A stretch of 41,050 nucleotides of DNA from Candidatus Dormiibacterota bacterium. Its GTDB lineage: Bacteria; Chloroflexota; Dormibacteria; Dormibacterales; Dormibacteraceae. The stretch is taken from positions 1 to 41,050 of the forward strand of contig CATPBO010000114.1 of the NCBI GenBank assembly GCA_955652835.1. Direction: 5' to 3'. Below are positions 27,428-28,125 of the stretch, piece by piece (within the stretch, counting starts at the first letter, position 1; every line of letters starts with the position of its first letter). Below the pieces are notes generated by a model. It did not search any database and was not told where the DNA came from. It worked only from the letters and a program-made list of their open reading frames with translations. The translations under genes were made by a program, and so were the position numbers.

Positions 27428-27847
27428 GTGGCCAGCGCGAAAGTGAAGGGATTGGGGACCAAGGAATCACCATGGCAGCTGACGACGCCCAGCGGGTCGT
27501 CTGAATACCTCATGTACAAGGATGCGTCGCTCGACCCGCCGGCGATCGTATGCGTCGTCGGCAAGACAGAGCTGCGTTACCAGCTGCGTGCAATCGAGGA
27601 CCTGCACGCGATGCTGAAGAAGCACGGCGACTGGATGCCTTTGGGGAGTGCCGATGAACAGAAGCCGGCGGCCGAAGGCACGGTGGAAGCCTGGGGTCGA
27701 TCAGCGAAGAACCCGGTCGGCGGTTGGTACGGTCTCAAGAAAGGACTCCGTGGTAGGTTCGGTATGTATATGCCGCCCCTGATGGAAGCGCTTGGCCTGG
27801 CCGAGGTCGAGCACAATCCCAAGAACAACCGGATGCGAGCGAAGTGA
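27428..27847 (+). CDS. Conserved hypothetical protein upstream of the SelW-like gene
   Basis: A 139-residue soluble protein that I do not assign to a named family with certainty. It begins KVKGLGTKESPWQLTTPSGS, and contains PPAIVCVVGKTELRYQLRAI, GDWMPLGSADEQKPAAEGTV and a glycine-rich end WYGLKKGLRGRFGMYMPPLM. Tryptophans and glycines are conserved-looking, with no cysteine pair or membrane segment. The GTG start has a strong AGGAGG (27416-27421) 6 nt upstream. Its stop overlaps the GTG of the SelW-like gene (GTGA), so the two are coupled. The tandem palindromes just upstream suggest control by the divergent ArsR regulator. Confidence 0.8.
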   Translation: MASAKVKGLGTKESPWQLTTPSGSSEYLMYKDASLDPPAIVCVVGKTELRYQLRAIEDLHAMLKKHGDWMPLGSADEQKPAAEGTVEAWGRSAKNPVGGWYGLKKGLRGRFGMYMPPLMEALGLAEVEHNPKNNRMRAK

Positions 27848-28125
27848 TTGCCCCGCTGCATGAGGTGCGGATCCAGTACTGCGTTCCCTGAGACTACCTT
27901 GACCAGGCCGTGAGCCTGGCGGCCGAGGTGCTGAGCCGGTGGGCGCCGATCATGCGTGCAGTCGAGCTTCAGAGTGGGAGCGGCGGAGTCTTCGAGGTGA
28001 TGCTGGATGGCGAGCTCGTATTCAGCAAGAAGGCGGCACGCCGGTTTCCCAAGCCTGGGGAGGTGGCCGGGCTTTTCGAGAAGAAGCTCGGTCCGGCGTT
28101 GGACTGGCGAAAGTCTTCCACGTAA
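27844..28125 (+). CDS. SelW/Rdx-family protein with CxxU motif; probable selenoprotein
   Basis: Read through TGA 27889-27891, this gives a protein of about 93 residues: VRIQYCVP-U-DYLDQAVSLA and then a typical Rdx thioredoxin-like domain with SGSGGVFEVMLDGELVFSKK and PKPGEVAGLFEKKLG. Cysteine homologues have YCVPC here, so TGA encodes the second thiol position of the CxxC redox motif, the hallmark of SelW-type selenoproteins. The frame is continuous on both sides. A 17-nt hairpin starts 11 nt after the TGA. The start is GTG 27844, overlapping the upstream stop (GTGA), or GTG 27865, four codons before the tyrosine-cysteine. A caller treating TGA as stop would keep only 27910-28125 or nothing. 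Likely role: selenol/thiol redox, partner unknown. Confidence 0.85.
27903..27919 (+). promoter_or_regulatory. Candidate bacterial SECIS hairpin (SelW-like gene)
   Basis: CCAGGC (27903-27908) pairs perfectly with GCCTGG (27914-27919) around the loop CGTGA. The hairpin is 17 nt long and begins 11 nt after the TGA, the spacing and size I recall for the minimal SelB-binding stem-loop of E. coli fdhF. The loop holds a GU step, as in known bacterial elements. Confidence 0.65.

Follow-up and report, generated by a model that had tools for sequence, protein, structure and literature searches.

The window, the whole 41,050-nt stretch of DNA analysed here, carries on its forward strand, at positions 27844–28125, a gene for a SelW-like protein of the Rdx family. 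It is directly preceded on the same strand by a DUF6855 gene (27428–27847; PF21619, E 6.5e-71), the 3' end of which overlaps the SelW-like start by 4 nt and whose stop codon is a TGA at 27845–27847. The SelW-like frame opens with a GTG, the position of which is kept among relatives, terminates at a TAA and is interrupted only once, by a TGA at 27889–27891, the predicted selenocysteine (Sec) codon. Read through, it encodes a product of 93 aa, ...IQYCVP-U-DYLDQAVSLAAEVLSRWAP..., in which the TGA occupies the second cysteine position of the CxxC of Rdx/SelW-like proteins, giving a CxxU active-site motif, C-V-P-U (27880–27891). An Rdx gene with an in-frame TGA at this position had been proposed in an earlier note on this DNA, and both the frame and the domain searches bear this out. 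The read-through protein matched Pfam Rdx (PF10262) with an E-value of 6e-19 and 68.5 bits (cut-off 22.6) over residues 7–75, a span reaching from before the TGA to beyond it. Against NCBIfam TIGR02174 (CXXU_selWTH) it scored 56.9 bits, above the cut-off of 34.2. Solved structures of the Rdx family also matched the read-through protein, with CxxC at the equivalent place. Gene calling under translation table 11 yields just a 71-aa stub at 27910–28125. Four other in-frame TGA codons with a nearby cysteine in the window (928, 27070 and 37298 on the reverse strand; 32373 on the forward strand) were unpersuasive by eye.

The genome also encodes components of the Sec machinery, which the earlier note had suggested looking for: selB (329.9 bits) adjoins selA (493.8 bits) on contig C166, and selD (358 bits) lies on contig C191. 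This selD carries an in-frame TGA of its own, in the context HGAG-U-ACKL (L013:1531, G000:C191), and is probably itself a selenoprotein gene. The remaining component, tRNA-Sec (selC), was found with anticodon TCA in both congeners and not in the window's own assembly, which is 85% complete in 263 contigs. There, the top matches of the search were ordinary tRNAs, the tRNA-Sec locus of a congener matched only at its flanks, and the synteny comparison with the congener G001 found a flanking gene (70% match) on contig C251, with tRNA-Sec absent. In our class-level sample, 23 genomes carry an Rdx gene and 22 of these have selB as well; the one without it, G017, is 71% complete. Because the own assembly is incomplete, the congeners have tRNA-Sec and selB accompanies the Rdx gene almost throughout, the missing tRNA-Sec is most likely an assembly gap. 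That the gene belongs to a selenoprotein family while decoding has ended in this species through loss of tRNA-Sec would fit the failed search; it is nevertheless very unlikely, given the congeners, the incomplete assembly and the intact selA, selB and selD (the one in-frame TGA in selD being of the Sec type). Separately, a tyrosine-recombinase-like ORF lies beside tRNA-Sec in G001 (L119:6838-8101, G001:C85), which suggests that an element has integrated at selC in that congener.

The TGA itself is strictly conserved. Our class-level sample comprised 41 genomes, namely the window's own and relatives up to class level, and 23 of them contained an Rdx match, each with exactly one TGA. C-V-P-U was read in every one of these 23 genes, and the flanking sequence was conserved on both sides, including an invariant C-V-P upstream of the TGA and an invariant W-A-P downstream. 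Since the TGA is kept in all 23 Rdx genes, its position together with the domain is far beyond chance. If sequencing or assembly had gone wrong here, or if the gene were a pseudogene, the TGA would be a corrupted Cys codon and no full protein would be made; the metagenome-type, fragmented assembly lends this some initial plausibility, but all 23 relatives, each assembled separately, have the identical TGA with the frame kept downstream, which renders it highly improbable. An equally small chance attaches to the 71-aa ORF being the true gene, with the TGA as a plain stop: mechanical ORF calling does list it, yet it lacks both CxxU and the beginning of the Rdx domain, and the residues on either side of the TGA are invariant alike.

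In a sample of 251 Chloroflexota genomes, with counts taken from the printed match list, 93 of 137 Rdx matches had one TGA and 44 had none (3 of the 44 being partial). That the phylum is Chloroflexota is shown by G141, a genome belonging to it, in which one contig was identical to a plasmid of Herpetosiphon aurantiacus DSM 785 across the 8 kb that were compared. Outside the class, the TGA stood for the second C of CxxC in all 24 UGA loci read, and cysteine was found at the TGA position in nine of nine stop-free Rdx genes read. Cysteine homologues had been said to have CxxC here; homologues encoded by three named Chloroflexi genomes (41–44% identity) indeed show CVPC, and a Cys codon replaces the TGA in homologues L073-L075. 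Genome-wide reassignment of TGA, for instance to Trp, could appeal to the one sense-like TGA each in Rdx and selD, but its probability is negligible: the neighbouring DUF6855 gene terminates with TGA, the Rdx genes of several relatives have a terminal TGA besides the internal one, and homologues have Cys rather than Trp opposite the internal TGA. Four Chloroflexota genomes (G136, G143, G179 and G106) each hold a TGA-containing Rdx gene plus a stop-free one.

Downstream of the TGA, two candidate bacterial SECIS (bSECIS) hairpins can be drawn on the forward strand. Hairpin A (27903–27919; CCAGGC-CGTGA-GCCTGG; -9.5 kcal/mol) begins 11 nt past the TGA and has a 6-bp stem and a 5-nt loop, CGUGA, located 17 nt after the UGA. 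Hairpin B (27906–27924; GGCCGU-GAGCCUG-GCGGCC; -10.0 kcal/mol) is the local form of a phylum-wide candidate whose loop lies 21 nt after the UGA. The two overlap and are mutually exclusive. The published bSECIS model specifies a loop of 3–9 nt, a stem of 4–16 bp, G in the first two loop positions, a UGA-to-loop distance of 16–37 nt and an energy of at most -7.5 kcal/mol (PMC13188914), and both hairpins fall within these limits of geometry and energy. Hairpin A is the 17-nt perfect hairpin of the earlier note, placed exactly where that note had put it. As evidence for a selenoprotein, however, the window's hairpin by itself is weak, because about 15% of synonymous-codon shuffles of the window sequence contain an equally good model hairpin (p about 0.15). 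Searching the window and the region against Rfam turned up no credible RNA family.

Comparison across relatives was more informative. Over 41 distinct UGA genes, hairpin B averaged 4.24 pairs where the synonymous null predicts 3.62 (sd 0.11; the observed mean was reached in 0 of 500 shuffles, a type of count that overstates significance throughout these tests, which treat related sequences as independent), and the other classes likewise exceeded the null (0/500). In nine Cys genes, the mean was at the null (2.22 vs 2.45). The core of hairpin B was paired in 85% of cells in the 41 UGA genes (94% in other classes), compared with 44% in the Cys genes. Paired changes occurred at columns 22/32 (G-C and A-U), 21/33 (C-G, U-A and G-C) and 23/31 (U-G, U-A and C-G). 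In addition, codon +9 ends in G in 41 of 41 UGA genes, whatever the amino acid, compared with three of nine Cys genes. These comparisons do indicate that an RNA structure after the UGA is under selection, and they identify hairpin B as the form that appears conserved across the phylum and absent beside Cys codons. Several other measures gave no such signal: RNAalifold on the class alignment recovered a 4-bp stem only, with no covariation; within the class by itself, neither hairpin A nor hairpin B had a better covariation count than shuffles did; and the raw count of paired changes did not single out hairpin B, other hairpin positions scoring higher at lower pairing. Folding energy alone is insufficient, because its z-score against synonymous shuffles is negative in the class (-0.90) but slightly positive (0.13) for the remaining UGA genes.

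The window's own family departs from this phylum-wide pattern. Here hairpin A lies above the synonymous null (5.13 vs 4.27, 0/500) and hairpin B does not (59/500); in family f3, both exceed it. One tentative explanation, which we consider possible though on balance doubtful, is a shift of the bSECIS register in this lineage: the overlapping hairpin with its loop at 17 nt would have joined or replaced the phylum-wide one with its loop at 21 nt, and f3 would have kept both. If true, this would represent a recoding signal moving inside a coding sequence.

SelW-like proteins are a listed bacterial selenoprotein family (PMC1794560), as the earlier note had stated, and are also treated in PMC1088965 and PMC2398784; a count from 2006 gave few selenoproteins in the phylum, with three in Chloroflexi (PMC1794560). 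With these proteins and with TIGR02174, the window's gene shares the Rdx domain, the CxxU motif, UGA for Sec and the existence of Cys homologues. It differs in its Chloroflexota lineage with CVPU and in its upstream partner: the DUF6855/SelW-like pair is present in both same-genus genomes, none was seen at the loci of other genera, and the DUF6855 gene is a probable operon partner kept only in the genus. No mention of DUF6855 was found in the literature searched. The protein also matched NCBIfam NF041051 (SelTWH_Campy) over 70 residues with 76.1 bits, below the cut-off of 88 bits, and is therefore not a member of that equivalog. Relative to the described bSECIS element (PMC13188914), the loop G, stem, distance and energy are shared, whereas the two overlapping, mutually exclusive registers possible in the window's class are a difference.

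The conserved TGA, the Cys homologues and selA, selB and selD support the probable CxxU selenoprotein that had been proposed, and they argue strongly, at the level of sequence, for a genuine selenoprotein gene, a further member of a known bacterial family. We are nearly certain of the following overall reading: SelB and tRNA-Sec would decode the UGA at 27889 as selenocysteine, a stem-loop just 3' of it, within the coding sequence, would help decoding, and the CVPU motif would act as the thiol/selenol redox centre of a small Rdx-family redox protein. Insertion of Sec at this UGA is what we infer from the comparative data; likewise, either hairpin may be the one that SelB binds, and the redox role of CVPU is a predicted one. 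The underlying biology is already established. The corrected gene model replaces a 71-aa stub that lacks the active site, and SelW-like selenoprotein genes in which a hairpin after the UGA is conserved are common in Chloroflexota.
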